Below are positions 49,760 through 64,000 of a DNA stretch of 64,000 bases, piece after piece. A program made the position numbers and the translations under genes. Below the pieces are notes generated by a model. The model was not told the origin of the DNA, did no database searches, and worked only from the letters and a program-made list of their open reading frames with translations. Numbering within the stretch: the stretch's first letter is position 1; every line of letters begins with the position of its first letter. Where the stretch lies: positions 62,001 through 126,000 of the forward strand of contig NZ_QPHM01000003.1 of the NCBI RefSeq assembly GCF_003336245.1. The letters run 5' to 3'. The DNA is from Haloplanus salinus (lineage in GTDB: Archaea; Halobacteriota; Halobacteria; Halobacteriales; Haloferacaceae).

Positions 49760-50458
49760 GGGCGGTGTTCAAATAAGGATCAAGGATGAGGCGGTGCGAT
49801 TTTTGAGTGGTCAATGCTCGAAATCGCACGTCTCATCGGCGGTAGTGCCCGCTTCGAGTTAGGATTTGTGGAGCGAGAGTCGACACCCGAGCCAGCGATG
49901 AAGCTCGGTATTCGACTCCATTTGGCTTGATTATCACTTTCGAATACAATCTTGATTCTTGATAGTTTGGGTGTCGAGCGTTGTCGGTCCACCGTTCACA
50001 ACTGGGTGCAGAAGGCAGATCTACAGCCCACCGATGGTGCCGACCCGGATCACGTTGCGGTCGACGAGACCGTGATCCAGCTCAATGACGAACGGTTCTG
50101 GCTGTACGCTGCGGTCGATCCCGAAACGAACCGCTTGCTGCACGTTAAGCTTTCTCCGACGAGAAATCAAGCGACTACCGAGATGTTCCTTTCCGAACTC
50201 CGCGAGAAATATCTCGTCGATGACGCGCTCTTTCTCGTCGATTCTGCACCGTGGCTGTGAGCGGCGCTTCACCGACATGGCCTCGATTACAGATACGAAA
50301 AGCATGGTAATCGGAATGCCGCTAAACGTGTCTTTCGAGAACTAAAACGTCGAACAAACTAGTTCTCAAACTGTTTCAGTCACGCCGAAGCAGACACCGT
50401 CGAAAATTGGCTTCGAGCGTTCGCCTTCGCATGGAACCAGTGTATCTGAACACTACCC
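49760..50458 (+). mobile_element. IS6-family (ISH-type) element, decayed
   Basis: About 699 bp. Terminal inverted repeats: left gggcggtgttcaaata (49760-49775), right, read on the minus strand, gggtagtgttcagata (50458-50443), matching at 13 of 16 positions. The single transposase frame is broken by three stops. No 8-bp target duplication is apparent. Confidence 0.6.
49814..50449 (+). pseudogene. IS6-family transposase with three nonsense codons
   Basis: ATG 49814 opens MLEIARLIGGSARFELGFVE, followed by the helix-turn-helix (GVERCRSTVHNWVQKADL), the first DDE Asp in HVAVDETVIQLND, the second in DALFLVDSAPWL, and HGNRNAAKRVFRELKRRT with the last Glu; the tail is NWLRAFAFAWNQ. One frame throughout, 211 codons, but TGA after LHLA (about 49928), TGA after APWL (about 50258) and TAG after RRTN (about 50357). 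Inactive by point mutation, without frameshifts. Confidence 0.75.
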
Positions 50459-50535
50459 AGTGAGGGAACCCCACGACATTACTCGTGGGAGAAGTCAGAA
50501 ACAGATAAAGCTCTGCTCTGAGTAACAATCAGAGA

Positions 50536-52290
50536 GTGGGCCCTGTATACCAGCTAACCCCGTCTATGCTTTTGTTTGCGCTTGTCTTTTTCATAGCGGC
50601 GGGGCTGTGTATCTATGCAGTAGTGCGGTATTTACGGCACGACCGGCGACCAGTCATTCTCGTTTTCGCCGTGTATATGACAGCAATTGGGTCGTGGGAG
50701 TTACTGAACTTTCTTATTGATGCCGTCACTGCCGAACAGCTGAAGCTCCTTGGCAAGAACATTGTGAACGCCGTCTCCGTGCCAGTGACCATCTACGCGA
50801 TTATCTCGTTCACGTTCATCTACACCGATCACAAACGGTGGATTAGGTGGGTCGTCCTCGCATGTGCCGTCCACATAACTTGTCTAAGTGTTGCACTCTT
50901 CGTCGCACCGGAACTGCTGTACGAGTCCAACGGGCTGGTGACGCAGGGCCCGTTCACCGTTGCCGGGTTCGTTTTTGAGCGGTTTGTCGTACTAGATCGG
51001 ACACTCAAGCCGGCGTTCTTGATTTATTGGCTGTACACTGTCTTGCTCGAATCGACTGCTATCGCGCTTCTCGTCCGATACACTCTTCAGAACCGACAAG
51101 ACGTAGTCCGCGGTCAGATGAGTGCGGTGCTGGTCGGCATCAGTGCCCCTTTGTTTGCCAGCGCTCTGCTTTTTGCTGGTGTTGTGCCGCCAGCATGGAA
51201 CCCGACAGACCTTTCATATATCGTGACCGCCGTCGCCTTCACGCTCGCAGTATTCCGGTACCGTCTATTTCGACTGATTCCAGTGGGACGCCAGCAACTC
51301 GTTCGAATTATGGGCGACCCCGTCATCCTGATTGATGACGCAAACAGGGTCGTCGATAGTAACCCGACGGCACGTGACCTGTTTGGTGTCGGGCCGAACT
51401 GGCAAGGCATAGCCGCTTCGGATTTTTTCACACCCCTTCTCGACGACGTAAATCGAATACTTGACATTACAGCTGCGGACACTGAAATTAGTATCGCAAT
51501 CGGTGACACGATACATCATTTTAGCCTGAATATTTCTCCTATTCAGAACGGTGGTAGCGTCGAGACAGGCCAATTAATCGTGATGCGTAACATCACAGAA
51601 CAGAAAGACCGCCAGCAGAAACTCGAAGAAACGACACAGGAACTTGAGCTGTCCAACGAGAAACTCAGTCGATTCGCCGGTATGGTGAGTCACGATTTGC
51701 GGAACCCACTGAACGTGATCTCGGGTCGGGCAGAACTTCTCCGGGGCGAGGCACCGACCGAACACGTCGAGCCGATCGTGAGAAGCACTGAACGGATGGA
51801 CGCAATGATTGAAGAATTATTGACACTGTCTAAAGCGGGCAAGAGTGTTGAAAAGTCGGAGTCCATCCCATTGGCGGGCGTCGCCGCTGACAGTTGGGGC
51901 GCTGTTGAAGATGACACTGTAAGTCTTGAACTGGACATCCCGGAGGACGTGGAAGTGCGAGCGGATGCGAACCGTCTCCAACATATCTTCGAGAACTTCT
52001 TTCGCAACGCCGGAGAGCATAACGACTCACCGGTCACGATCCGTGTCGGTACCCTCCAAGGTGGGGAAGAATCTATTTCTGGATTTTTCGTCGAGGACGA
52101 CGGCATCGGCATCCCGGAGTCGGATAGTACAGATATTTTCGAACAAGGTTATACAACCCACACCGACGGAACAGGATTTGGCCTTTCGATTGTTGAGGAA
52201 ATCGTCACGGCTCATGGTTGGACTGTCACAGTTGCCGAGAGCGATATGGGTGGTGTACGTTTTAATATCGATATGACCGATCCTGTGTGA
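50536..52290 (+). CDS. 7TM-PAS histidine kinase
   Basis: 584 residues, membrane. The N-terminal 7TM histidine-kinase sensing domain covers about 1-240 with seven hydrophobic helices (e.g. LLFALVFFIAAGLCIYAVV, VTIYAIISFTFIYTDHKRW). A PAS domain follows at about 245-350 (RIMGDPVILIDDANRVVDSN), then HisKA with SRFAGMVSHDLRNPLNVIS (His-phosphate site) and HATPase_c with IFENFFRNAGEHN (N box), FFVEDDGIGIPE (G1) and GTGFGLSIVEEIVTAHGW (G2). A GTG start at 50536 precedes the first helix; an ATG 30 bases later is also possible. No response regulator is adjacent, as is common in haloarchaea. It may sense an input at the membrane, such as a small molecule or redox state. Confidence 0.9.
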   Translation: MGPVYQLTPSMLLFALVFFIAAGLCIYAVVRYLRHDRRPVILVFAVYMTAIGSWELLNFLIDAVTAEQLKLLGKNIVNAVSVPVTIYAIISFTFIYTDHKRWIRWVVLACAVHITCLSVALFVAPELLYESNGLVTQGPFTVAGFVFERFVVLDRTLKPAFLIYWLYTVLLESTAIALLVRYTLQNRQDVVRGQMSAVLVGISAPLFASALLFAGVVPPAWNPTDLSYIVTAVAFTLAVFRYRLFRLIPVGRQQLVRIMGDPVILIDDANRVVDSNPTARDLFGVGPNWQGIAASDFFTPLLDDVNRILDITAADTEISIAIGDTIHHFSLNISPIQNGGSVETGQLIVMRNITEQKDRQQKLEETTQELELSNEKLSRFAGMVSHDLRNPLNVISGRAELLRGEAPTEHVEPIVRSTERMDAMIEELLTLSKAGKSVEKSESIPLAGVAADSWGAVEDDTVSLELDIPEDVEVRADANRLQHIFENFFRNAGEHNDSPVTIRVGTLQGGEESISGFFVEDDGIGIPESDSTDIFEQGYTTHTDGTGFGLSIVEEIVTAHGWTVTVAESDMGGVRFNIDMTDPV

Positions 52291-52399
52291 GAGTTACTGT
52301 CGTTGGGCTATCCGAGTTGCCTAACTCGATGAAAATACAATTGATAGGGTTGACGACAGTAGTTCGGCTCCAGTATCACCGTTTACTGGCATCGAATAG

Positions 52400-53101
52400 A
52401 TGCCGTCGGTTGCCGACCTCATAGATCCCGTCTTCAGATTGTTCGCGGTCGCCGAGCTGACGGCCCGGTATCTCTCACTCGTTCTGCTGGTTGTCGGCCT
52501 CCTCGGCTATTTCACCGCCAGGGCGAACTCCCGCAGGGCGGTTCGATATCGTGGGATGATCACCGGCTCGGCTGCAGCGTTGGTCGCGATCATCGGCCTC
52601 TCCGCGTTTTACGACCTCGTCGCGTTCGTGACGGGTGGCTCCGGATTTCTCCCGCCTAGCTGGCCCTGCGGGTCGGCCGGCAGCGCTGGACTACTTGCGA
52701 TCGCTCGGGCTGCCTCGGGAATGCTGTCGTACCTCGGCCTCGCGTGCTTTTCACTGGGTGACGCGCTTTGGGCAGCGGGGACGCCTCGAGGACGGACGTG
52801 GACCCGCGGCTACCATGGAATCACGTGGGGGCTCGTGATGGACTATACCGGTCACCCGTACTACGTTTCGGGAAATGCCATCCTCCACGCGCTCGGCCAG
52901 CGACTCTCATACGACGTCCATCGCTACCTCCACTCGAGCTACGGCGTGTTCGTGCCTGGCCAGTTCGATCGGTTCCCCGACGAGCACTCCCAGACCGGCG
53001 TTCGTCCCTATCTCGGCAGCGGGCTTCCGGCTGTGGAGTCCTACAACGACCTGTTCCTGCTACGCCAAGCGTCGCACTCGTGGCTTCTCGGTGAGCTGTA
53101 G
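52400..53101 (+). CDS. Chimaeric hypothetical: membrane-protein N-part joined to another protein's N-part
   Basis: 233 residues with two different halves. Residues 1-135 have three hydrophobic segments (LSLVLLVVGLLGYFTARANS, AAALVAIIGLSAFYDLVAF, ASGMLSYLGLACFSLGDAL). From about residue 142 (ITWGLVMDYTGHPYYVSGN) the sequence looks like the N-terminal start of a different, soluble protein that has its own ATG at 52838; it continues with SSYGVFVPGQFDRFPDEHS and PYLGSGLPAVESYNDLFLL and stops soon after. The two parts were probably joined by deletion. Neither was recognised with certainty. Confidence 0.45.
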   Translation: MPSVADLIDPVFRLFAVAELTARYLSLVLLVVGLLGYFTARANSRRAVRYRGMITGSAAALVAIIGLSAFYDLVAFVTGGSGFLPPSWPCGSAGSAGLLAIARAASGMLSYLGLACFSLGDALWAAGTPRGRTWTRGYHGITWGLVMDYTGHPYYVSGNAILHALGQRLSYDVHRYLHSSYGVFVPGQFDRFPDEHSQTGVRPYLGSGLPAVESYNDLFLLRQASHSWLLGEL

Positions 53102-53109
53102 CTCCGCGA

Positions 53110-53693
53110 CGGCGATCAGTCCCTCCGACGACGTCGTGGCGGCAAGCGACGGGAGCGTCGCGGTCGTCGGAAGCATCGTCGATATCCAGGAGGGTTCGGG
53201 ACTGATCAAGCGATGTGGGGCCGACGACCGCACGCGCGTCCTCCGCAACGGCCGGTGTGCGGAGCACGGCCAGCGCGACGGTGAGTTCGACCTCCGCATC
53301 AAGGCGATCCTCGACGACGGTGAGCGCTCGCTGAGCGACGCGACCGACATGGCGATGGACGCGCTCTCGACGGACGTGGTCGCCGAGGAGATCAGCGCGC
53401 AGCTGCTCGGCCGGCGGTACCGCCTGACCGGGAGCGTCGTGGGCACGTACTTCCTCGTGAATGACGCCGAAGAGACGACCGACGGTCCGAACGGGTTCGA
53501 CGCCGACGCGGTCGAACCGGCGCTCACGGCCCGCCAGCCGGCTCGGCGGCTGTTCGCCGAAGAACTCAAGGGGACGACGGAAACCTTCCAGGAGTCCGAC
53601 GAGGAGCGAGCGCCTGTCTACGGCCTGACCCCAACCGGCGTGGACGTCAACCACGTGTTCGTCGTGGGGGCGCTCGTAGGGACTTCTATCTGA
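53110..53693 (+). pseudogene. RPA-associated protein fragment with internal deletion
   Basis: The frame reads VVGSIVDIQEGSGLIKRC, CAEHGQRDGEFDLRIKAILD, SDATDMAMDALSTDVVAEEI, LGRRYRLTGSVVGTYFLVND and LTPTGVDVNHVFVVGALVG, the second half of haloarchaeal RPA-associated proteins (Rpap), including the C-x-xH zinc-binding part. It lacks the N-terminal region, an internal piece between ILDDGE and the MAMDAL helix, and the C-terminus beyond FVVGALVG, and no start codon is present. Rpap works with RPA in single-stranded DNA binding; this copy is dead. Confidence 0.6.
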
Positions 53694-53731
53694 CTCGGGG
53701 ACACCGGCGTTAGCGTCGGAGTCATCATCTA

Positions 53732-53932
53732 TCACGGATCGAAATCCTTCTCGTCGCGGTCCACCGGCGCCGGGATCGTCACGTCCTCCCGGTCGGCGTC
53801 AATGCCCATGATCCTGAGCGGACCGAGCACTTGACTGATGTTCTCGCGGACCCAAGCGGCGCCTTTCCGATCAACGGCCGAATTAACGACATCCTGTGCA
53901 GTGGTTCGGTCTGTAGGGAGATCATCAGTCAT
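53732..53932 (-). CDS. Small acidic hypothetical protein
   Basis: 66 residues: MTDDLPTDRTTAQDVVNSAV then VRENISQVLGPLRIMGIDA and an acidic end (PVDRDEKDFDP). The composition is that of a genuine small haloarchaeal protein; it could be a helical antitoxin or virus-type protein, but no domain was recognised. It stands alone between the Rpap remnant and broken toxin genes. Confidence 0.45.
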   Translation of the reverse strand: MTDDLPTDRTTAQDVVNSAVDRKGAAWVRENISQVLGPLRIMGIDADREDVTIPAPVDRDEKDFDP

Positions 53933-54097
53933 CGCTACTGCGCTCCGTTGGATAAGTATAGAGATAAAGACTTTTATCTTGTCTCTCCAGCCCTCGGCCG
54001 CAGGAGCGACAATTCTTACCTGTGTTTCGCCTCATAAGAAGTCCCACGACTGATCGCCCAGGGCTACATATGCGTAGAAGTATAATTCAACCATGAG

Positions 54098-54292
54098 ATG
54101 ACAAAACACACCGCTCGAGATGAAGTGTGGAATCATGCCCTCCGGTATGCACTGCTTGAGGAATCTTTCAGCATACAGCGCATTAGAAGCGACATGACAA
54201 CTAGAGCCAGTTTCCGGACCATTCGCGATACGCTGAATTTCTCCGACCAACTCAAGCAAATGCAATACATCGGCTTGGGCCAGATGAATTAG
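54098..54292 (+). pseudogene. Winged-helix-like protein, 3' part replaced
   Basis: 64 codons. The first 45 are protein-like (DEVWNHALRYALLEESFSIQRI, RASFRTIRDTL; each given in part) and resemble a small winged-helix regulator, while the last 18 codons are the reverse complement of the vapC fragment on the opposite strand. A TATA-like tataatt lies about 15-20 bases upstream. The break is near 54232, so the natural C-terminus is lost. Confidence 0.4.
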
Positions 54293-54325
54293 CGGCCCTG
54301 TATCGGTGACAACGAGTCTGCTCAA
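54233..54325 (-). pseudogene. VapC-type PIN toxin, N-terminal fragment
   Basis: Starting at TTG 54325, which overlaps the antitoxin stop (TTGA), the frame reads RLVVTDTGPLIHLAQADVL then HLLELVGEI: the first PIN strand with its catalytic Asp (TDTGPLIHL). After about 30 residues the PIN sequence ends at the junction near 54232 and only random codons follow to 54032. The toxin is therefore dead. Confidence 0.55.
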
Positions 54326-54576
54326 GCGTGGAGTCCCCACTCCACGTCTTCTTCGATCGCGTCGCGAGCGGAGTCGACTTGGTCGACAACATCTGCGCCG
54401 AGTTCGTCGACCGCCGCCTCGCGTGTGAGGTCGCCATCGAGGTATCGACTGATAATCATATCGCGGTAGAGCGTCTCGACGCCCGTTTCGACGGCCTGTT
54501 GAATCACCTCGGATTCATCAATACCGAGGTGCTGGGCGAGTTCCCGCACCCGGTCGGAGACGCTATCGGTTGCCAT
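54322..54576 (-). CDS. VapB-like antitoxin
   Basis: 84 residues: SDRVRELAQHLGIDESEVIQQ, AVETGVETLYRDMIISRYLD and LTREAAVDELGADVVDQVD, the helical family of UPF0175-like/VapB antitoxins with HTH-like repeats, often paired with PIN toxins. The toxin gene overlaps it in the next frame but is truncated. The ATG 54576 is preceded about 20-30 bases upstream (minus strand) by a TATA-like tttatac. Confidence 0.65.
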   Translation of the reverse strand: MATDSVSDRVRELAQHLGIDESEVIQQAVETGVETLYRDMIISRYLDGDLTREAAVDELGADVVDQVDSARDAIEEDVEWGLHA

Positions 54577-54611
54577 ACGTCCGTGTTAGGTCCCAACCGG
54601 TATAAATGTCA

Positions 54612-54804
54612 TAGCGAGGCTGCCCGGGTTGTTGACCGAGACGTAAAGAACGTCCACGAGGAACTCAGTTGGCTTGCCCAACTGGGAATCATCTTTTTCA
54701 AAGAAGATGGTCAGAGCAAGCGTCCGGTCGTCTGGTTCGACGAACTCGTCATCAGCCTCCTGTTCGATCCCGACACTGGAGATACAGCGGCTGCAGCACC
54801 GTAG
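54612..54804 (+). pseudogene. C-terminal fragment of an HTH regulator
   Basis: The frame encodes EAARVVDRDVKNVHEELSWL, AQLGIIFFKEDGQSKRPVVW and FDELVISLLFD: the recognition helix and wing of MarR/HVO_A0114-type transcriptional regulators (VGRDxKxVHxELxxLxELG). The N-terminal part is absent, with a sharp end near 54605 at the promoter of the antitoxin gene. Truncated, non-functional. Confidence 0.5.
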
Positions 54805-54887
54805 TGGCACTCACGATGCTCTATGGGTGTCACCGAGAGTGCTAACCTGTGCCTCGGATAAGATAATCTGGATTTAGTTAGGGTGGG

Positions 54888-54911
54888 CTATCTTAGCCTC
54901 AACTAAGATAG
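54888..54911. repeat. Perfect inverted repeat
   Basis: ctatcttag (54888-54896) and ctaagatag (54903-54911) pair perfectly over 9 bp with a 6-base loop. It lies in a gene-free stretch (54805-55189) upstream of the TFB-like gene and could be an operator or a transcription terminator-like stem. The rest of that stretch shows no firm gene. Confidence 0.45.
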
Positions 54912-55149
54912 GTCAGGTGCCTTTTCAGTTGGGTACAGTCGGAGCGGATTCAAACAATCCGTAGTGGAAGTCGCTGAGGAGCGTGATGACCTCCGGCTGT
55001 CTACCGTCGACGATCTCGTTCGAACTCTCTCTGATCGATCCCGCATTCACAGGCCAGCCGTTCGAGCAGCGGATTATCTAGGTTATCGTCATCGCTTAAA
55101 TACTGAACCGAACTATTCCTTATTGCCTCACATATTGCGGATCCTATAA

Positions 55150-55163
55150 TTCGATTTTTATCG
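55150..55163 (+). promoter_or_regulatory. TATA-box candidate for the TFB-like gene
   Basis: The sequence tcgatttttatcg lies 27-39 bases before the ATG at 55190, consistent with an archaeal TATA element; an agggggcgagg purine run follows just upstream of the start. Confidence 0.35.
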
Positions 55164-55189
55164 ACTCAAAGGGGGCGAGGAACGGCAAT

Positions 55190-55993
55190 ATGCACATGCT
55201 CATACACGTACTCGTCCCTGCAGCCGACGCGATCGAGGCGGTCGGCACCGCACGATTCGCGCTCGACCGATTGATCGGGATCGGTGAGGGCGCGAGTACT
55301 GCGTTCGACTACTACAAAACCCTGGACGAATCGACCGCACGGTATCGCGACCACCCTCGCTACGGTGGGCTCGATCCCGCGCATCGGCTGTCGTCAGTGA
55401 CCGGTGAACAACTGCTGGACGACGCGGTCGAGGCACAGACGACGTGGTTCGTCGAGACCGTCGCGACGCTTCGTGAGAAGCTCGACACGCTCGACCCGGC
55501 CGAGCTGATGGATGATGTCGACCTAGCCCGGTATGACTGCTACCGGCTTGGACAGTTCGCTGGGCCGTCGGTCTGGGTCTACGACGAACACGGCGCCGGG
55601 CTCCATTCCCGGAGTGCAGTCGACCGCTACATCGAGGACCGTGGCTCCGATTCGCTCTGGGTGGTGCCCGCCGACTTTCTCCCCCGGCTGGCCAGTGCCG
55701 TCGACGCCTCGGAGCGGGTCCGAGAGCGAGCGGCGCACCTCTGTGACTCGGAGGCCGTTGCCAGCCTCGCGAACGGACGCAAGCCCGCCGGCGTCGCCGC
55801 TGGCTGTCTATACTTCGCAGCGCGAGAACTGGATGGCTACGGGGCAGTTACGCAGTCGGAGCTCGCGGCGGCCGCTCGAATCTCCGATGTCAGTCTCCAG
55901 CACGTCTGGCAGAATCTCCAGGAACTCGCTCTGCCGGCGTGGCCCACTCCCGAGTCCAGTGCTCGGACCGATACAGAACGGAGGTCCCCATGA
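55190..55993 (+). CDS. Unknown N-terminal domain fused to a TFB-like cyclin repeat
   Basis: 267 residues. The first 165 belong to a haloarchaeal domain I cannot name: MLIHVLVPAADAIEAVGTAR, FDYYKTLDE, VETVATLREKLDTLDPAELM, DCYRLGQFAGPSVWVYDEHG. Residues 170-250 match the second cyclin fold of TFB/TFIIB (SLANGRKPAGVAAGCLYFAA, TQSELAAAARISDVSLQHVW), which in TFB contacts the BRE through its recognition helix. The zinc ribbon, B-finger and first cyclin repeat are absent. Inference: a DNA-binding modulator of transcription with the first domain as sensor. The stop overlaps the next ATG (ATGA), so the zinc-ribbon protein is coupled. Confidence 0.75.
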   Translation: MHMLIHVLVPAADAIEAVGTARFALDRLIGIGEGASTAFDYYKTLDESTARYRDHPRYGGLDPAHRLSSVTGEQLLDDAVEAQTTWFVETVATLREKLDTLDPAELMDDVDLARYDCYRLGQFAGPSVWVYDEHGAGLHSRSAVDRYIEDRGSDSLWVVPADFLPRLASAVDASERVRERAAHLCDSEAVASLANGRKPAGVAAGCLYFAARELDGYGAVTQSELAAAARISDVSLQHVWQNLQELALPAWPTPESSARTDTERRSP

Positions 55994-56226
55994 CTACCGG
56001 AGACTCCTGTCACGAGGGAGGTACGGAGATGATACTTGATCTGGCCGCCGCCGGATGGCAACCGGGAGATCCCTGTCTAGAATGTGGCCACTCGGTCGTT
56101 CACGCCATCGTCCGGGCTGGAGTCACCTTCCGGTCGGATGGGTCGTGGGCGTTGAAGGAGACGCTCGGCGTGTACGAAGCGTTCTGTTCGGAGTGTGACT
56201 GGCTCCCCCCGGTTTACTCTCCGTAA
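55990..56226 (+). CDS. Small zinc-ribbon protein coupled to the TFB-like gene
   Basis: 78 residues. Two CxxC pairs, CLECGH and CSECDW, about 40 residues apart, form a zinc-ribbon. Between them is a beta-rich part (SVVHAIVRAGVTFRSDGSW). The ATG overlaps the stop of the TFB-like gene. The pair could be a two-part regulator or RNA/DNA-binding complex. Not similar to any family I can name. Confidence 0.6.
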   Translation: MTTGDSCHEGGTEMILDLAAAGWQPGDPCLECGHSVVHAIVRAGVTFRSDGSWALKETLGVYEAFCSECDWLPPVYSP

Positions 56227-56375
56227 GACCACTGGCCGTTACACGTCTACTCATGCGGGGCGGGTCGTAAAGTCGACTCAGTGGTGGTTCAAGTCTCAAC
56301 CTGCGAGTTCGTTCTTCCATCAACGGGCAGATGGCATCGGCTCCTGACAGAAACAGCGTGCGAGATGCAGAGGAT

Positions 56376-56700
56376 CTATTCAGCACTGCACTCAACGCCG
56401 GTGATTTCGAAGCGTGCGTCACTGTCAGGCCCCTCAGTCACTCGAATATCCCAGCCGTGCGCGTCGGCAATCTCCTCCACGATATTCAGGCCGAACCCTG
56501 TACCGTCCTTTGTAGTCGAGTACCCTGCCTCAAACACATCCTCGCGCTTACCGGTGGGAACCACGGTCACAGTTACGTCGTCGCCACCGTGCTCAATGGC
56601 GTTGCGATACAGGTTTTCCAGAAGCTGTTGAAGCTGGCTCTGGTCGGCGCGTGTTGTCCGACTAATCTCAACCGAGAGCGTTGCCTACCGGGTGCTCCAC
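56376..56700 (-). pseudogene. Histidine-kinase HATPase fragment
   Basis: The frame encodes QQLLENLYRNAIEHGGDDVT (N box) and, after a deletion of the G1 region, FEAGYSTTKDGTGFGLNIVE (G2 box) followed by EIADAHGWDIRVTEGPDSDA to the stop at 56376. Upstream the frame has an in-frame TAG near 56690. It is a deleted C-terminal part of a kinase. Confidence 0.55.
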
Positions 56701-57069
56701 GAAGAGGCAGGGCAAACACTCTACGATGTTCGAAATCAGCTTAGACATCGAAGCCTGCAGACGACCGAGTGTGTCTACAACCAATTCAAAAAAGTATAGT
56801 GGTGAATTGTTCACACCTGTTGGTAAATCATAGATCGTGAGTAGTTGGGGCTCTCATTGACGTTGGTGTAAATCTAATGAATCGCCATCCAGAGATGCGT
56901 CCCTGCACAAATGGAGGTATTTGTCGCTCTCTGTCTTTCGACTATCGTTGCGATCACCAATTATGAACATGAAAATGAGACTACCCCCGAAAAATTCATA
57001 CTATGAGACTATTTTTATAACACGCTAGCCGACCGGAATACAATACGTTTTCTTCACTATCTCTCGTGG
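56701..57069. other. Intergenic region upstream of the ComB-like gene
   Basis: No gene. It is A/T-rich compared with the rest of the window. A TATA-like tttttataa at 57011-57019 lies about 105 bases upstream of the ATG at 57124, leaving either a leader of about 80 bases or an earlier start at a GTG (57070). Confidence 0.35.
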
Positions 57070-57123
57070 GTGGGATATAGCCCTCATAGTCACAGTAATA
57101 CACCGGATCTTAGAAGATATGGC

Positions 57124-57864
57124 ATGGGTATTCATGCAACTTCGACGACAGAACCGATCCCCGTCGATCAAATGATCCCTGCACGTTCGCAGATCCCCAC
57201 CGACCCCGACCCAGGAAACTACGTCGTTGTTGATGTCACACAGTTCTCAACAACCGTGCCGGAGCTGTTTGCCAACGGGGCAAAATACGTCCACATCACC
57301 GAGAACCGTGGCGAGGAACCCGAATTCCAACAGGAGCATCCAGAGGCAAAGATCGGCGGCGGTTCCGGCCCCGAGTACCGTGGCGAACCCGGCTATGACT
57401 TTTTTAATTCTCCGAGCTTCGTCCAAGATATTCCTCTCGATGGTCGCCCGACGGCAATGACCTCAACGAACGGGGGTAACGCGGTGACGGATCTCCGGTT
57501 AGCCGGCGATGACACCGTCACGGTCTATGTTGGTGGGTTAACCAATAGTGCCGCGCTGGCGGAACATCTCCGGAAACAGACGGAACCGACATACTTTGTC
57601 GCTGCTGGCTCCGACGGAAATCCTTCACCCGAGGACATAGCGGGGGCAATGTATATTGCTCGACATCTCTATGGAGATCCGCCGACTGATCACCACCGGA
57701 CGATCTACCGTGAGATAGTCGAGTATTCGAAGGGAGCCAAGTACGAACACAAACCACAGATCAAACAAACTGACCTCTATGAATACGCCCTAAATTTCGA
57801 CAGTCGTAATGTTATCCCGAAGCTGGAGGGTCAGAAGCTCTACGACGTGTCAGAGGGCGAGTGA
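57124..57864 (+). CDS. 2-phosphosulfolactate phosphatase (ComB)-like protein
   Basis: 246 residues from ATG 57124. ComB-family features: VVVDVTQFSTTVPELFANGA near the N-terminus (matching the D-V-x-R/Q-x-S/T-T-x-x-x-A/L-x-NGA signature), a central GEPGYDFFNSPS and RPTAMTSTNGGNAVTDL, and a C-terminal AGAMYIARHLYGDP. ComB hydrolyses 2-phospho-3-sulfolactate in coenzyme M synthesis; haloarchaea do not make methane, so the natural substrate here is unknown. The stop overlaps the PHP gene start (TGATG), showing translational coupling. First gene of a compact set with a PHP phosphoesterase and an ECF transporter. Confidence 0.75.
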   Translation: MGIHATSTTEPIPVDQMIPARSQIPTDPDPGNYVVVDVTQFSTTVPELFANGAKYVHITENRGEEPEFQQEHPEAKIGGGSGPEYRGEPGYDFFNSPSFVQDIPLDGRPTAMTSTNGGNAVTDLRLAGDDTVTVYVGGLTNSAALAEHLRKQTEPTYFVAAGSDGNPSPEDIAGAMYIARHLYGDPPTDHHRTIYREIVEYSKGAKYEHKPQIKQTDLYEYALNFDSRNVIPKLEGQKLYDVSEGE

Positions 57865-58634
57865 TGCAAACGGATATCCACACACATACGACGTTCTCCG
57901 ACGGGTCAGACCTGTCCGCAATGATCGATGCGGCCGAGACGGCAGGGCTTGACGCGCTTGGACTCACCGATCACTGTATTGTAACCGACGACGCCTTCGG
58001 TCGCCGTGCGACATACGACCTCGTCAAAACGTACGAGCAGCGTCGGGAGGCTGTGGACGCTGCCCGCGAAGAGACGACCCTTACGCTGTACGACGCTGCT
58101 GAGGTGAGTTACGTTGCCAGTGAGGCGGACGCGATCCGGGAATTTCTGTCGACAGCTGACTTCGAGTACACCATTGGCAGCGTCCACTTTGCCGATCAGT
58201 ATGACTACACCGCTAACGCGCAGTACGCCGAGGCGGAGGACGAGACGTGCCGAGCGGCGGTCGAACGCTACTACGACGCCGTCGTTGAGCTCGTTGAATC
58301 CGAACTGTTCGACGTGCTCGGTCATCTCGACCTACCCGAACGACTACCCACCCTGCGTGGGTTCTCAATCCCCGACGACTACGAGCGCGTCGCCGCCGCA
58401 CTGGCGGACTCCCGAACGGTTCCTGAAATCAATGCCGGTCGAGTGAATCGATCGCTGAACCGGGTGCACCCGGATCCGGGGATGATCGCTTCGTTCTCCA
58501 ATCACGGTATCAAATTCGTCCTCGGCACCGACAGTCACAGGCCCGACGAAATCGTTACACGAGTGCCGGCTCTCGAAGCGGTCGTCGATCGGTCGACGAT
58601 CGATATAATCGAATTCGATTCTCTTCTGTCGTAG
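57864..58634 (+). CDS. PHP-domain phosphoesterase (HisJ/PolC-like)
   Basis: 256 residues. The PHP metal motifs are complete: DIHTHTTFSDG at the start (H-x-H), LGLTDHC (third His), the Glu in AAEVSYV, IGSVHFAD (further His), LGHLDLPERLP and LGTDSHRPDE (Asp and His near the end). Family members are metal-dependent phosphatases such as histidinol-phosphate phosphatase. It overlaps the ComB-like gene by one base (TGATG). Inference: a second phosphatase step on the same compound. Confidence 0.85.
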   Translation: MQTDIHTHTTFSDGSDLSAMIDAAETAGLDALGLTDHCIVTDDAFGRRATYDLVKTYEQRREAVDAAREETTLTLYDAAEVSYVASEADAIREFLSTADFEYTIGSVHFADQYDYTANAQYAEAEDETCRAAVERYYDAVVELVESELFDVLGHLDLPERLPTLRGFSIPDDYERVAAALADSRTVPEINAGRVNRSLNRVHPDPGMIASFSNHGIKFVLGTDSHRPDEIVTRVPALEAVVDRSTIDIIEFDSLLS

Positions 58635-58780
58635 CGGATGTGACTGCCGTGGTCGTATCTGTACCACCGTTCGCTGGGAGTATCAGCCGTATGTATATAC
58701 GCAACTATGAGCTCTATTGCATCAAAATAGGATTATTGCTGTGTTTGCTCTCTTATGATCGTTCTGAATCGGGATAGAAA

Positions 58781-58790
58781 TCACATATAA
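58781..58790 (+). promoter_or_regulatory. TATA-box candidate for the ECF genes
   Basis: cacatataag lies 36-45 bases before the ATG at 58826, in a 190-base A/T-rich gap after the PHP gene. The ECF genes may thus have their own promoter in addition to read-through. Confidence 0.4.
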
Positions 58791-58825
58791 GCGATTAAAA
58801 TGGATTCTCTACCGTTTGCACCTGC

Positions 58826-59689
58826 ATGGCAAGCTACACATCGGCTGAGTCGCGCAGTCCGTTCAGCTTCGACCACAGGGACATGATGGCGTTCATACTC
58901 ATCATGTCTCTGCATGGTATGCAAAGTATGATCACGGAGCTATTACCGAGTATATCCGGGGTGCTGGACGTCCAGATCGGACCGTTCTGGTTCGTCGCAA
59001 TGTCGGTAGCACTGTTGTTCCGGTCGTTCTGGGCGTGTCTGGCAATTCCCGTTGGGATCACCGTCTTCGGTGAGATCCTGATCGGGGACTTCAACGCCCT
59101 TGGGACGGTCGAAGGGCTAATCGTGATCACTCTGTCGTGGTTCTTTGCAATGTCGCTCATCACGGATCCGATGGATCCGAAACAGATCGCTGTGGTCGGC
59201 TTCATAGCGAAGGCCATGGAAGAGATCGGTGCGTGGTTCATCGACGTCGGGAAATTCTACGTTGGTGTCGAAGAGATCGACGCAATTGCGTGGCTACCCG
59301 AAACCGTCTGGGTGACTGAGGGTGTCGGTGCGTTCACCCAGATCATCGTTGCCGGGATCATCTTTGGGGCGATCCCGACCTACTTCCTCTACCCACGGCT
59401 GCGTGGGAAGATCGAACCGCTGCTGGGGATGACGCCTGTCGAAGGCCGTGACGGCCCAATGTTCACGCGCACCTCGGCGAAGCGATTGCTCGCGTGGGTA
59501 GTGTTCCTCCCGTTGGCCTTCGTCATCGAGGCCTTCAGCGAGACCAGCGGTGGACTCATCACCTTCACCCCGCAGTTCGTCGAGACCTACGGCCAAGAGT
59601 TCCTGTTCGTCCCGATTCTGGCCGCCGCGGTGGTCGCCTTCAGCGTGGTCGCCTACCGTCAGCGCAAGACGGACTCGCTGAACAACTAA
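58826..59689 (+). CDS. Candidate ECF transporter S component
   Basis: 287 residues with about seven hydrophobic segments, e.g. SMITELLPSISGVLDVQIG, FWFVAMSVALLFRSFWACLA, TVEGLIVITLSWFFAMSLI and GVGAFTQIIVAGIIFGAIPT. The size and layout are those of a substrate-binding S component, and the fused ECF ATPases start 22 bases downstream. It does not clearly match any S family I know (RibU, ThiT, BioY, NikM), so the substrate is unknown. The alternative is an unrelated membrane partner of the complex. Confidence 0.6.
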   Translation: MASYTSAESRSPFSFDHRDMMAFILIMSLHGMQSMITELLPSISGVLDVQIGPFWFVAMSVALLFRSFWACLAIPVGITVFGEILIGDFNALGTVEGLIVITLSWFFAMSLITDPMDPKQIAVVGFIAKAMEEIGAWFIDVGKFYVGVEEIDAIAWLPETVWVTEGVGAFTQIIVAGIIFGAIPTYFLYPRLRGKIEPLLGMTPVEGRDGPMFTRTSAKRLLAWVVFLPLAFVIEAFSETSGGLITFTPQFVETYGQEFLFVPILAAAVVAFSVVAYRQRKTDSLNN

Positions 59690-59711
59690 CTGGCTGCCGA
59701 TTTTTTATTTT

Positions 59712-61526
59712 ATGAGCGCACACAGCATCATCGTTGACGACCTGACATTCCAGTACCCCGGTGGCGACGAATCGGTCCTACGGGGGGCGGATCTGCGTAT
59801 CGATTCGGGCGAGTTCACCGCTGTCGTCGGCGGGAACGGCAGCGGGAAAACGACGCTCTGTAAAACGTTCAACGGACTGATTCCCCACTTTTTCGACGGG
59901 ACGTTCGAGGGGTCAGTCCGTGTCGGCGGCACTGACACCCGCGAGTCCAATGTCGGGGAGCTCTCCCGTCAGGTTGGCTACGTGTTCCAGGACTTCGAAA
60001 ACCAACTCGTCCAAGAGACGGTACGAGACGACGTCGAGTTTGCACCGCTGAACTACGGGTTCGACGACTATGAGGAACGGGCCACACGTGCTCTCGAGAT
60101 GGTTGGCCTCGCCGGGCTCGAAGATCGGTTCATTTGGGAATTAAGCGGTGGCCAGCAACACCTCGTTGCACTTGCGGGAGTCCTTGCGATGGATCCCGAA
60201 TTCGTATTGGTTGACGAACCGGCTGCCCAACTAGACCCACGAAACGCCCGCGAGGCATACGAACGACTCCGCTGGCTGCACGAAGAGCGAAATAAGACGA
60301 TCGTCGTGATCGAACACCACTCGGAATTCATAGCGGAGTATTGCGACGAGATGGTGTTGGTCTCGGACGGCAGTGTCGCCTGGAAGGAGCCAGTTAGGAT
60401 CGGTCTCAATCGACTCGACGATCTGCATGCGGAAAATATTCATCCACCACAGGTCACCCAGATCGCCGATGCTGTCCCCGCCAGGATGGCGACTGTCTCG
60501 GGTGACCGCTATCCGGTGACCGTTGAGGAGGCTGAATCGGCGCTGCCGAACGAAGACCGATCGGTGACGACCGAGCCGGCACCAGACAGTCGATCAAGTG
60601 GGATAGCAGCCGATAACGACGACCGTGCATCGGTCATCACGCTCCGGAACGTCGGTCACGGATACCCGACGCTTCGCGAAGGGCACAACCAGGTACTCGA
60701 GGGGTTAGACCTCGATCTGTACGCAGGCGACCGCGTTGCACTCGTCGGGGCGAACGGGTCGGGAAAATCGACGCTACTTCGCCTGCTTACTGGTCTCGAG
60801 TCACCGGATGAAGGCACGGTTACCGTGTTGGGGCAGGAGACGAACGACGCATTGCCCGAAGAACTCGCGGACGACACGGTCTACATTCACCAGAATCCGG
60901 AGAAGATGTTCGTCGAGGATACTGTGCGTAAGGATATCGGCTACTATCTCAAAAATCGTGGTACGGACGATGTCGAAGATCGTGTTGAGGAAATACTGAC
61001 GTACCTTGATCTGGAGGAACTGGCCGATCGCGACGGGCGACTAATGAGCCTGGGCCAGCAGCGGCGCGCCTCGCTTGGGATCGGATTAGCGACCGATCCA
61101 ACGGTCGTTTTGCTCGACGAACCGACCGGAAGTCTCGATCTACAGAGCCGCCAAGAGGTTACAGGGATCCTCCAGAAAGCCGAGAGCCGCGTCGAGACGG
61201 TCGTCATCGCGTCCCATGATCTTCAACTGGTCGCTGAGTGGGCCGATCGGGTGATCGTGCTTGACGAGGGGAACGTGATTGCGGATGCGCTGCCGAAAAC
61301 GGTGTTCGACGATTCCGAACTCCTCGCGGCGGCAGACCTCAGGCAGCCGCAAGTGGTCGCGTTGAGCGAGCGGCTCGGGTTTGATTCGCCGGTACTCACT
61401 ACTGACGCGATGGTTGAAGCGATTACGAAAGAAACGGATTCGGCTATCGCACCTGCAATCGACGAGGATAGAGTACCCGACAGCGAGACCCCGAACGGAG
61501 CCCAGAGGCCCATGGAGGAACAATGA
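59712..61526 (+). CDS. ECF transporter ATPase, fused EcfA-EcfA'
   Basis: 604 residues with two ABC domains. Domain 1: Walker A GGNGSGKTTLC (residues 40-50), Q-loop VFQDFENQLV, signature ELSGGQQHLVALAG, Walker B VLVDEPAAQLDPRN. Domain 2: Walker A GANGSGKSTLL (about 345), signature MSLGQQRRASLGIG, Walker B VLLDEPTGSLDLQ. Between them is a polar linker (about 270-310). ECF modules normally use two separate ATPases; the fused form is frequent in archaea. The stop overlaps EcfT (ATGA), so translation is coupled. Confidence 0.92.
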   Translation: MSAHSIIVDDLTFQYPGGDESVLRGADLRIDSGEFTAVVGGNGSGKTTLCKTFNGLIPHFFDGTFEGSVRVGGTDTRESNVGELSRQVGYVFQDFENQLVQETVRDDVEFAPLNYGFDDYEERATRALEMVGLAGLEDRFIWELSGGQQHLVALAGVLAMDPEFVLVDEPAAQLDPRNAREAYERLRWLHEERNKTIVVIEHHSEFIAEYCDEMVLVSDGSVAWKEPVRIGLNRLDDLHAENIHPPQVTQIADAVPARMATVSGDRYPVTVEEAESALPNEDRSVTTEPAPDSRSSGIAADNDDRASVITLRNVGHGYPTLREGHNQVLEGLDLDLYAGDRVALVGANGSGKSTLLRLLTGLESPDEGTVTVLGQETNDALPEELADDTVYIHQNPEKMFVEDTVRKDIGYYLKNRGTDDVEDRVEEILTYLDLEELADRDGRLMSLGQQRRASLGIGLATDPTVVLLDEPTGSLDLQSRQEVTGILQKAESRVETVVIASHDLQLVAEWADRVIVLDEGNVIADALPKTVFDDSELLAAADLRQPQVVALSERLGFDSPVLTTDAMVEAITKETDSAIAPAIDEDRVPDSETPNGAQRPMEEQ

Positions 61527-62482
61527 GTTATCTCGACGCCCTTACCGATATCTCGATCGCCGATCTCAAGGTCGACTTGATGCGGACGGCCTACGACAAC
61601 GAGGACGCCTTGCTGAACACGTTCGATCCACGGGTAGTGCTGTTGTGGACGATACTGTTCATGATCATTCCGTGGTTATTCTACGATACGCTGTCCCTGG
61701 TCGTACTGCTGGCGGCAGCGTTCGTTCTTGCAGCCCTCTCACAGGTGAGCAAGTATCTGCTCGCATTGCTCCTGTTCGGCCAGCTCACAAACATTGGCTT
61801 CTTTGTCGTATTGGTCCCGCTGATGGGTGGATTGCTCACCGGGTGGGGATACCTCGGTAGCAATTCCTCACGATTGGTCGACGGAGTCGTAGCACTTGAT
61901 CCGTCGGTGTTCGTTGAGGCTAGCGGTATTGTTGCCGGTGCTGTCGGGGAGGGGATCAACACGGCACTGACAAGTCAGCAGGCCGGGATCGACGCCGTCG
62001 GTGCCGTCGTGCCGTTTTTCCTCAAGCTTACCATCATCTCGGTGATCAGCTTAGCAGTCTTCTCAGCGATGAGCCCCCAAAAAATCAGTCAAGGAATGCT
62101 CCGGCTTGGGGTCCCTCGCCAGCTTACGTTTGCAATCGCCTACGGCTACCGAATGATGCCGCTGCTCGTTGAGGAGTATCACGCACTTATCAATTCGTTC
62201 CGGCTTCGAAGCAAAGTTCCCGAAGACAAGGGTATACTGAATTGGCGGTATTTGTACTACCTGCTGAAACTTTCCATCAAAGCGTTCTATCCGCTCATTT
62301 TCAATGTCGCTAAACGCTCTCGGGTCACTGTCGAAGCGATGGAAACGAAGGGATTTTCTCAGTCTCTGGGCGACCCGAAAAGCCGCGAACTACGAACTGA
62401 CGATATGATGATTCGGACCCGTGATGTTTCGTTCGTCTTCGGTTCGTTGTTGTTTGTTTTGGGGGTTTGGATGTTCCTCTGA
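61523..62482 (+). CDS. ecfT: ECF transporter transmembrane component EcfT
   Basis: 319 residues. Membrane helices are at about 35-75, 85-120, 165-195 and near the end, plus the cytoplasmic coupling region containing SFRLRSKVPEDKGI and AKRSRVTVEAMETKGF, the site of the two conserved Arg motifs that contact the ATPases. The CbiQ/EcfT topology is complete. Starts within the stop of the ATPase gene (ATGA overlap). With the S component and ATPases it makes a complete ECF importer. Confidence 0.85.
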   Translation: MSYLDALTDISIADLKVDLMRTAYDNEDALLNTFDPRVVLLWTILFMIIPWLFYDTLSLVVLLAAAFVLAALSQVSKYLLALLLFGQLTNIGFFVVLVPLMGGLLTGWGYLGSNSSRLVDGVVALDPSVFVEASGIVAGAVGEGINTALTSQQAGIDAVGAVVPFFLKLTIISVISLAVFSAMSPQKISQGMLRLGVPRQLTFAIAYGYRMMPLLVEEYHALINSFRLRSKVPEDKGILNWRYLYYLLKLSIKAFYPLIFNVAKRSRVTVEAMETKGFSQSLGDPKSRELRTDDMMIRTRDVSFVFGSLLFVLGVWMFL

Positions 62483-62801
62483 TCACTCTGCGCTCAGTTA
62501 TTAATAATTAAAAACGTACTATCCTACATTTTCGCCTGGATCGTAGTAGAACTCACGTGTGTCGTTCGTTTATATAGTTTAGACTGCTCACGGAAAAGTC
62601 AATTATTACTGTTATATGTCCAGATGGTTACTTGCAGCCACCCGTTTAAGCTGTCCACTGACTTTTCTGTACTGACTTGCTCTGACCGAAGCAACGTGCA
62701 AGATATGCGCTGTGCATCTTGCACGGCGTTAAGGAAGTTCGTCGAATTTGGTATTTGAACTCGGGAGTCCACAACTCGCATCTTCAGACTTGACGCACCA
62801 C
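62483..62801. other. Intergenic region with a long inverted repeat
   Basis: No gene. cgtgcaagat (62695-62704) pairs perfectly with atcttgcacg (62716-62725) around an 11-base loop. Upstream are A/T-rich patches (taataattaaaaac near 62500, tttatatag near 62569). A terminator for the ECF operon or a small element relic are both possible. Confidence 0.35.
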
Positions 62802-63233
62802 TCAGGGCGAATCGGCGAGTTCCTCGCGGAGGATGGTTCGATGGCAGCGTTTCGTCTCGGTGTTCTCGTCACAGACGAGCACGAGATCCTCACCATCCAG
62901 CAACCGGGTGCGGAGGGCCTCGAAGGCCGTTTGTGCATCGTCGTCCGTGTTCAGGTGCTCACGATACCGCTGTTCGAAGTCGATATCGTCCCACGCCGTG
63001 TTGTGTGCTTCTGCATCGCTGAGCCCATCCGCCTCAAGCTCCTCGGTCCGTCGTTTGATCTGCTCGAGCAGGGTTTGTGGTGGGCCCAGTGCTGGGTGGT
63101 TCCCGTCGACAGCCGGAGCGAACCAGGACATTGGCGATCTGACGACTCCGACCAAGGCTGCTTGATCGGGTAGGTCTACTAAGTCGTGCTGGAGCGCAGC
63201 GACGTAGGTGTCCTGCAGTGTTCCCCGCGTCAT
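62802..63233 (-). CDS. DUF488-family protein
   Basis: 143 residues from ATG 63233. The family's C-terminal motif is LVLVCDENTETKRCHRTILR (C-x-E-x-x-x-x-x-CHR), here with the two Cys and the His-Arg; the N-terminal part has VDLPDQAALVGVVRSPMSWF, and the middle has WDDIDFEQRYREHL. DUF488 proteins are of unknown function, often with conserved Cys that may bind metal or act in catalysis. Divergent from the PCNA-like gene. Confidence 0.75.
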   Translation of the reverse strand: MTRGTLQDTYVAALQHDLVDLPDQAALVGVVRSPMSWFAPAVDGNHPALGPPQTLLEQIKRRTEELEADGLSDAEAHNTAWDDIDFEQRYREHLNTDDDAQTAFEALRTRLLDGEDLVLVCDENTETKRCHRTILREELADSP

Positions 63234-63408
63234 GTTTCGAGGTAGTTCGTAATCGGCCTTCAAATCAGTCGCAGCGCGGCTTCTTGCTTACCTTGGCGTA
63301 TTCGCGAATTTACCGTCCCGAAGGGGGTGAGGGAGAGTTGGAGTCGACACGGTACCGCTCCAATCGACTCTTACCTCTCACTCTTAGTTGCTGCTCTTAC
63401 CACCAACC

Positions 63409-64000
63409 ATGAGTACAGAAACACCCCCAGAGAGCGCAGATAGCGACGAACTCGAAGATTCATCGACCGATCCGTCGTCGACCAGTCCGCAAGAGGGTCC
63501 GACACCTGACCAATCGCCGGATGATAAGGCGGCATCGACGTCCGAAGAAGGTGAGTCTGACACGCCTGACGCCACCGGTCCGCCGTCGACGTTCCGGGCG
63601 GCGATTCAGTCGGACCCGCTGAAGGATATCCTGCGGGCACTCAGGGCGACCGTCGACGAGGCCCGCGTGAAAATTGACGAGACGGGCATCCGCGTCCGGG
63701 CGGTCGACCCCGCGAACGTCGCGATGGACGACCTCAACCTCTCGGCGAGCGCGTTCGAGTCCTACGACGCGACTCCCGGCGTCATCGGAGTCGATCTCGA
63801 CCGACTCTGGGATCCGGTTTCGCTCGCAAACAAAGGCGATCTCGTCCAACTTCACCTCGACACTGAGAGTCGGAAGCTGGTCGTGGCCGTCACTGGTCTC
63901 GAGTTCCAGATGGCCTGTCTGGATCCGGCGACGATTCGGTCGGAACCGACGCTTCCCGAGCTGGAGCTACCAGCGAGCGTCACCGTCGATCGCGACACGC
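63409..64000 (+). CDS. PCNA-like sliding clamp with acidic N-terminal extension, partial
   Basis: The window ends within the gene; 197 codons are present. Residues 1-60 are a Ser/Glu/Asp-rich low-complexity extension. From about 62 the clamp starts: FRAAIQSDPLKDILRALRAT, EARVKIDETGIRVRAVDPAN (classical IRAVDPANV), LSASAFESYDATPGVIGVDL and FQMACLDPATIRSEP. Normal haloarchaeal PCNA begins directly at the fold, and the helix residues here differ from it (for example MDDLNLSA for MVDLTLDA), so this is probably a divergent second clamp. Clamp roles: processivity platform for polymerases and other DNA enzymes. Confidence 0.8.
   Translation, partial: MSTETPPESADSDELEDSSTDPSSTSPQEGPTPDQSPDDKAASTSEEGESDTPDATGPPSTFRAAIQSDPLKDILRALRATVDEARVKIDETGIRVRAVDPANVAMDDLNLSASAFESYDATPGVIGVDLDRLWDPVSLANKGDLVQLHLDTESRKLVVAVTGLEFQMACLDPATIRSEPTLPELELPASVTVDRDT

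Follow-up and report, generated by a model that had tools for sequence, protein, structure and literature searches.

An energy-coupling factor importer cassette linked to phosphoesterase genes in Haloplanus salinus and in other archaea and bacteria

Introduction

Which compound is carried into the cell by an importer whose genes stand next to phosphoesterase genes? This question is raised by five neighbouring genes (57124-62482) in a stretch of 64,000 nucleotides from the haloarchaeon Haloplanus salinus, which was analysed as a whole and is called the window here. They encode a ComB-like protein, a PHP-domain phosphoesterase and the parts of an energy-coupling factor (ECF) transporter, namely an S component, a fused EcfA-EcfA' ATPase and the coupling protein EcfT. 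The original prediction for this locus, made from the letters of the DNA, had proposed the uptake and dephosphorylation of a small compound, with a leaning towards a sulfonate or another coenzyme-M-like compound.

The cassette is real, is conserved in archaea and bacteria and is anchored in the known ECF class. The explanation tentatively favoured here is a dedicated ECF importer with an S component of a new, unnamed family, accompanied by cytosolic enzymes which process the imported compound. One and the same importer is accompanied by several kinds of phosphoesterase (two PHP subfamilies and EndoIV/CbiR-like, ComB-like and inositol-phosphatase-like proteins), and this variety is the strongest argument for a phosphate ester in the compound or in its first product. 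In the open-access literature no paper recognisable as describing this cassette was found, subscription papers being mostly outside the search.

The Locus and Its ECF Genes

All five genes of the window are read on the plus strand, in the order ComB-like, PHP, S, EcfA-A' and EcfT:

57124..57864, plus strand: ComB-like protein, 246 amino acids, divergent subfamily of the PF04029 superfamily (E 3.5e-21)
57864..58634, plus strand: PHP-domain phosphoesterase, HisJ-like, 256 amino acids (PF02811 E 7.7e-16; PRK07328 104.9 bits; PDB 2yxo E 1.9e-15)
58785..58790, plus strand: TATA-like stretch, candidate second promoter read from the letters alone, 36-41 bases 5' of the S start
58826..59689, plus strand: ECF S component, 287 amino acids, predicted S fold at about residues 14-206 followed by two predicted C-terminal helices
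59712..61526, plus strand: fused EcfA-EcfA' ATPase, 604 amino acids (TIGR04521, TIGR04520, and PF00005 in two stretches)
61523..62482, plus strand: EcfT transmembrane coupling protein, 319 amino acids (PF02361 E 7.2e-19)

The ComB-like gene starts with the ATG at 57124 and ends with the TGA at 57862-57864, and the PHP gene starts with the ATG at 57864, which yields a TGATG overlap (57862-57866). Likewise the start of EcfT overlaps the stop of EcfA-A' by 4 bases. PHP and S are separated by 191 bases (58635-58825), and because this gap contains the TATA-like stretch the ComB-PHP pair and the S-A-T genes may form two transcription units. No Rfam match at the gathering cut-off was obtained for window positions 50000-64000. 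Chance adjacency of the five genes is very unlikely, since the arrangement recurs in other genomes and ComB and S occur together.

The ATPase fits its families well, with 371.1 bits for TIGR04521 (cut-off 330), 365.2 bits for TIGR04520 (cut-off 315) and two ABC stretches. EcfT reaches 68.7 bits with PF02361 (cut-off 25) and 17.9 bits with the CbiQ equivalog TIGR02454, for which the cut-off is 111.8, and is therefore not a cobalt-type T component by that model. Thus the complete ECF importer of the original prediction is present, S by its predicted fold and the other two parts by family matches. The predicted gene order, strand and TGATG overlap hold as well; the description of the genes as joined by overlaps or short gaps does not extend to the 191 bases between PHP and S. 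As in known ECF transporters (FolT, ThiT, RibU, PanT, BioY and others), an S fold, an A-A' ATPase and a CbiQ/EcfT-type T component are encoded together. In contrast to these, the window S has 287 amino acids with two extra C-terminal helices, is linked to phosphoesterase-family genes and has no sequence match to Pfam or NCBIfam models or PDB chains.

An S Component of No Named Family

With the window S protein zero Pfam or NCBIfam matches were obtained at E values up to 1. Two bacterial relatives (loci L171 and L157) gave no Pfam match at E up to 0.1, the latter also no NCBIfam match at 0.01, and a profile of 29 haloarchaeal S sequences matched none of the PDB sequences at E up to 10. The original prediction that S fits no recognised family was thereby borne out, and no strong match to a vitamin family of Pfam or NCBIfam came to light.

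Two AlphaFold (AF2) models were therefore compared with known structures, one calculated from 29 haloarchaeal rows with a predicted local distance difference test score (pLDDT) of 77.8, the other from 31 mixed rows with a pLDDT of 82.9. In the VIA-align search with the first model ECF S components occupied ranks 1-14 with Z scores of 9.2-11.3, the next row having 5.5; these included folate, thiamin, riboflavin, pantothenate and biotin types. With the second model they occupied ranks 1-8 (Z 9.6-11.6), followed by an acyltransferase (Lnt) at 8.2 and then by 5.4; with helical bundles, Z scores under about 13 may lack specificity. The alignments had a root mean square deviation of 3.0-3.9 over 155-172 aligned residues. 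Plain Foldseek yielded no match at E 0.001 or below; its best one was a G protein-coupled receptor (E 0.28), and ThiT ranked third (E 0.45, probability 0.93). The S-fold match is credible because of the gap to unrelated rows and because the gene adjoins EcfA and EcfT, so that the window protein is, on its modelled structure, an ECF S component, showing the S fold of six helices. The models place two long helices (215-240 and 257-286) behind the six, about eight in all instead of the seven originally predicted.

Among the matches listed, the closest named relative of the window S is from H. pteroides (Halonotius) with 94 percent identity. Twenty-three aligned bacterial S proteins are 31-36 percent identical to the window S, and 21 columns of the mixed haloarchaeal-bacterial alignment are invariant.

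As the S families are tied or nearly tied in the fold match, the fold does not tell the substrate. This bears on uptake of thiamine or of a pyruvate dehydrogenase cofactor, for which ThiT speaks as one of the best, though tied, fold matches. Genes read by eye as pyruvate dehydrogenase E1-alpha, E1-beta and E2-like and as lipoyl-synthase-like flank the cassette in L037, L039, L043, L044 and L048, five loci from two genera only and from two S clades, and a ThiD-like gene was seen by eye near the cassette in L038. Against these stand the lack of a match of S to any S-component model, the lack of a thiamine pyrophosphate riboswitch in the 8 bacterial loci searched, and the occurrence of ThiC in 35 of 40 S-positive genomes compared with 18 of 40 S-negative ones, which had been chosen (same genus or family; ComB-bearing) and were not a random set. 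ThiC being commoner together with S, the importer does not replace thiamine synthesis, and a thiamine-type substrate is very improbable. ThiC is missing from five S-positive genomes. The window genome is among these and, taken alone, would leave thiamine possible there. Vitamin auxotrophy (thiamine, B6) as the cause of the S distribution was considered too and was rejected on the ThiC counts and on the presence of SOR_SNZ (B6) in all 80 genomes.

Distribution and Exchange of Partners in Haloarchaea

S was found in 40 of 391 halobacterial genomes and in 18 of 86 genera, a patchy distribution; of the window's own genus 8 genomes are listed, and 2 of them carry S. The genes of the fetched loci were called by a codon-score script and named partly by eye. 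In all 39 other haloarchaeal loci S, A and T are contiguous, and each of them has genes of phosphoesterase families within the stretch, which is up to 19 kb long. The kind of partner changes: ComB and PHP are present in 20 loci, ComB and a TIM-barrel protein resembling EndoIV and CbiR (fam5; one copy was scanned with Pfam and matched PF01261) in 12, an inositol-monophosphatase-like protein (PF00459, one copy scanned) with a weakly CehA-like protein in 4, ComB only in 2 and fam5 only in 1. Both loci with ComB alone carry traces of a second partner, a PHP remnant in L041 and a fam5-like piece of 90 residues in L062. In the locus with fam5 alone (L056) the contig ends just past EcfT, and ComB lies at the end of another contig of that genome.

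PHP and fam5 occur together in none of the 39 loci (Fisher p 3e-6, neither this nor the Mantel figures being corrected for phylogeny), a pattern to be expected of enzymes that can replace each other. Among the 34 ComB genes a single one (L061) is more than 5 kb away from S; 21 lie downstream of S on the same strand, 6 upstream on the same strand, 5 downstream and 2 upstream on the opposite strand. A close-type ComB was counted at 150 bits or more, a level reached in 58 genomes, and 18 genomes with weaker matches, all of which are S-negative, were excluded. So counted, and with phylogeny ignored, it is found in 37 of 40 S-positive compared with 21 of 351 S-negative genomes, or in 16 of 18 compared with 11 of 68 genera. 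Together with PHP in 20 of the 39 other loci this indicates that the ComB and PHP genes are inherited along with the ECF genes, as the original prediction would have it.

Pairwise identities correlate strongly between S and T (r 0.96), ComB and fam5 (0.95) and ComB and PHP (0.88), and less between S and PHP (0.70) and S and ComB (0.64), although S and fam5 reach 0.87; the Mantel value for S and A (0.72) is depressed by a wrong A copy in L066. This pattern suggests modules which have been re-paired and yet kept together, more than one frozen operon. Haloferax gives an example, where S is 78-79 percent and ComB 50-51 percent identical to the window proteins and fam5 stands in place of PHP. Judged by the partner families, the constant of the cassettes is phosphoesterase chemistry, not ComB.

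The EndoIV/CbiR-like gene which replaces PHP in 12-13 haloarchaeal loci leads to another reading, salvage of a cobamide or of its nucleotide loop (cobamide, alpha-ribazole or its phosphate), with this gene as a relative of CbiR. CbiR itself, a phosphodiesterase of cobamide remodelling, splits cobamides into cobinamide-phosphate and alpha-ribazole (PMC7733943). The NCBIfam CbiR model is the best match of all eight EndoIV-like proteins scanned, at 68-84 bits, which for all eight is below the NF041277 cut-off of 105 bits. No recurring cobamide gene was noticed by eye in 26 of the 39 loci, where no family search was aimed at such genes, and the two cobalamin riboswitches found in the 8 of 54 bacterial loci searched precede genes read as ribonucleotide reductase and not the cassette. 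Cobamide salvage is accordingly an improbable explanation.

The ComB-Like and PHP Enzymes

The ComB-like protein of the window belongs to the PF04029 superfamily and matches the solved ComB-family protein 1vr0 with an E value of 6.5e-15. On this membership one could base the idea that the substrate is sulfolactate or a similar sulfonate, or some other compound resembling coenzyme M, and that the enzyme is a phosphatase of the phosphosulfolactate type. However, the protein yields 38.3 bits with TIGR00298, for which the cut-off is 175.05, and stays far below the cut-off of all eight ComB equivalog models, PRK00886 among them. The reference motifs D-x-[LI]-R-A, G-E and N-G-T, as found in the three solved proteins 1vr0, 2yyv and 2z0j, are altered throughout the 36 ComB copies of the cassette type. 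Arginine of the first motif is replaced by glutamine (25) or histidine (11) and its alanine by phenylalanine (35) or tyrosine (1), glutamate of G-E by glycine (22) or serine (14), and threonine of N-G-T by glycine in all 36. Asp37 and the NSP, N-G and [ED]-D positions are kept, as in 2-phosphosulfolactate phosphatase itself, and the ComB-like protein is probably still a metal-dependent phosphatase. Seven more typical haloarchaeal ComB copies (L123-L129) are also devoid of the arginine, with the glutamate and threonine mostly kept. The label 2-phosphosulfolactate phosphatase is thus unsafe for these haloarchaeal proteins. In addition, ComB was not found by tblastn in 54 bacterial loci of the same importer (up to 17 kb each), nor in 4 of the haloarchaeal loci. 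The sulfonate leaning of the original prediction finds no support beyond the family name, and a substrate of this type is hardly to be expected.

The PHP protein of the window contains the stretches HTH, DH, AAEVS, SVH, GHLD and GTDSH and reaches the PF02811 cut-off. It resembles the HisJ-type histidinol phosphatase 2yxo in its PHP domain and yet remains under both HisJ cut-offs, just missing TIGR01856 (88.7 compared with 90.2 bits) and falling well short with PRK07328, where 202 bits are required.

In four ComB loci which are not linked to an ECF transporter (L113-L115 and L117) the ComB-like gene lies directly 3' of genes read as PstS-PstC-PstA-PstB-PhoU, a position which fits a phosphate-releasing role of the family. 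An inositol-monophosphatase-like gene adjoins the ComB-like gene in L114, L115 and L117. The ComB copy of L117 (G318:C4:108616-109278) has one in-frame TGA, and the ECF cassette of the same genome (L069) pairs with an inositol-phosphatase-like gene, so ComB may have decayed after its replacement.

The Bacterial Form and Its Regulator

A scan of GTDB contigs gave 415 relatives of the S gene among 512 pattern matches. The best 80 were kept, so that the bacterial counts favour close relatives; 26 of these loci are archaeal. The 54 bacterial ones belong by name mostly to Bacillales, with one entry each from Nocardiopsis, Chloroflexi, Eisenbergiella and Gracilibacter. In three sampled phyla S is rare, with 1 of 201, 5 of 296 and 5 of 299 genomes, the seeds and the partial or weak G649 and G936 being counted.

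The bacterial form is a compact set of five genes. PHP follows S-AA'-T in 52 of the 54 loci, the exceptions being L174, where the contig ends, and L195 from Nocardiopsis. A regulator of the RpiR type is present in 49, and in 47 its gene and S are divergent. The complete S-AA'-T-PHP-RpiR set is also contained in L222-L224, from three genomes in the same phylum as L195, and in L225 and L226. Pfam confirmed the PHP domain and the RpiR helix-turn-helix in one protein each.

In 44 of the 47 intergenic stretches between RpiR and S at least 11 of the 12 positions of a palindrome, ATGWAA-N6-TTWCAT, are matched, base shuffles giving 0.6. Across 13 genomes (L169 not included) the pattern occurs at 76 sites on one strand compared with 38 control sites. 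Of eight sites read outside the cassette six lie inside open reading frames and two are intergenic, and no gene recurs among them. It looks as if the regulator acts locally, with no wider regulon among the sites read. Its operator is a ready reporter for a ligand screen.

Hidden Markov models of window and bacterial PHP proteins score 15-22 bits across the two groups compared with 250-470 within them, and hhalign gave 97 percent. On these scores the two are different subfamilies and distant relatives, which suggests that different phosphoesterases were recruited in archaea and bacteria. The bacterial cassette PHP leans weakly to CehA/McbA, with one of three scanned copies leaning to another PHP model; an alignment with the CehA-like partner of four haloarchaeal loci (fam30) was not convincing (probability 4 percent).

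An Rfam search of 8 of the 54 bacterial loci gave two cobalamin riboswitches, one S-adenosylmethionine riboswitch and two tRNAs, none of which stands before the cassette. The cobalamin riboswitches (L162:6462-6693 and L164:6549-6780 (-)) are located beside the cassette, before the genes read as ribonucleotide reductase.

EslABCR of Listeria monocytogenes is likewise an operon for an ABC-type transporter with an RpiR regulator (PMC7847544, PMC7828314). It was rejected as the same system because its description is that of a different ABC type: EslA and EslB are described as weak homologues of YtrB and YtrC-YtrD, and the string 'php' is absent from both papers.

A Proposed Function and Its Alternative

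The favoured explanation can be put as a sequence of steps. S would bind a small polar compound outside the cell, and EcfAA'T would drive its release inside. An enzyme of the phosphodiesterase type, PHP in the window and in bacteria or the EndoIV/CbiR-like protein in Haloferax and Natrinema, may then cut a phosphodiester or a first phosphate. An enzyme of the monoesterase type, the ComB-like protein or in some genomes the inositol-phosphatase-like one, would remove the remaining phosphate. In bacteria the local RpiR-type regulator would switch the unit on or off by binding to ATGWAA-N6-TTWCAT. From the original proposal of uptake and dephosphorylation of a small compound the ECF importer and the co-inheritance of ComB and PHP with it are retained, while the sulfonate leaning falls away and ComB is not obligatory.

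A bolder version, possible although on balance doubtful, sees in this ECF family an importer for an organophosphate of the phosphodiester type (headgroup-like and zwitterionic, for instance, or nucleotide-like), which is then cut in two steps by interchangeable phosphodiesterases and phosphatases. Members of the family were seen in haloarchaea and Bacillota, in a few Actinomycetota and in one metagenome bin of Chloroflexi, and if this version were true it would constitute an ECF route for organophosphate nutrition, not for a classical vitamin.

Several points weigh against phosphate ester uptake. The known substrates of ECF transporters are mostly unphosphorylated vitamins and metals. The residues of S which are kept across phyla on the presumed extracellular face are mostly acidic: E38, D140 and E165 are invariant, E96, E149, E152 and E159 nearly so, as is Lys143, this face being placed outside by analogy with the topology of known S components. 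Such a face is a poor fit for an anionic phosphate ester and argues against a simple anion. The PHP and TIM-barrel families have members with other chemistry, and the CehA-like partner in the four fam30 loci lacks a Pfam match and reaches 48.9 of the 80 bits required (one copy). The SIS part of RpiR is below its Pfam cut-off (20.5 compared with 25, one copy), which leaves phosphosugar sensing by the regulator not secured. Moreover, in 8 of 22 further ComB loci (L100-L121) a ComB and PHP or ComB and fam5 pair is present within one stretch without a linked ECF transporter, in L100 and L104 with PHP some kb away. The enzymes therefore also serve without the importer, which favours import of an unphosphorylated compound.

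In that alternative the compound taken up by the ECF transporter is an unphosphorylated and probably cationic or polyhydroxylated micronutrient, and the phosphoesterases serve an internal pathway which makes or recycles the same compound via phosphorylated intermediates. The acidic S face, the enzyme pairs without a linked ECF, as if the importer were optional, and the patchy occurrence of S in 40 of 391 genomes all agree with it. On the other hand no kinase, ligase or other pathway gene was seen to recur beyond one or two lineages among the clustered neighbours or, by eye, in 26 of 39 loci, and PHP and RpiR were the only recurrent bacterial partners found. It is a possibility to be kept in mind, though not a likely one. 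A zwitterionic or polyol phosphodiester fits best as the substrate under the favoured explanation of import followed by processing, and would reconcile the acidic face of S with the linkage to phosphoesterases.

For some ECF S components the substrate has yet to be found. What has been gained here is an S family without a Pfam or NCBIfam model which spans archaea and bacteria and whose bacterial form, a compact set of five genes, brings a regulator and an operator of its own. By the exchange of at least four kinds of phosphoesterase partner an anonymous membrane protein gains a testable substrate class.

Further Observations

In the ECF-free ComB loci L105, L108-L111, L116 and L119 an ATP-grasp-like protein of about 260 amino acids (fam10, named by eye) recurs, which in four of these loci accompanies the EndoIV/CbiR-like gene. 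One copy was scanned and gave no Pfam, NCBIfam or PDB match.

Other features of the window are, by position:

54032-54576, minus strand: small antitoxin-like open reading frame, then the apparent start of a PIN-domain toxin which, by eye, soon diverges from expectation
55190-55993, plus strand: short TFB-like protein with one TFIIB repeat (PF00382 E 1e-11), no zinc ribbon being reported
63388-64000, plus strand: PCNA-like sliding clamp, cut off by the end of the window, whose N-terminus carries a long acidic extension

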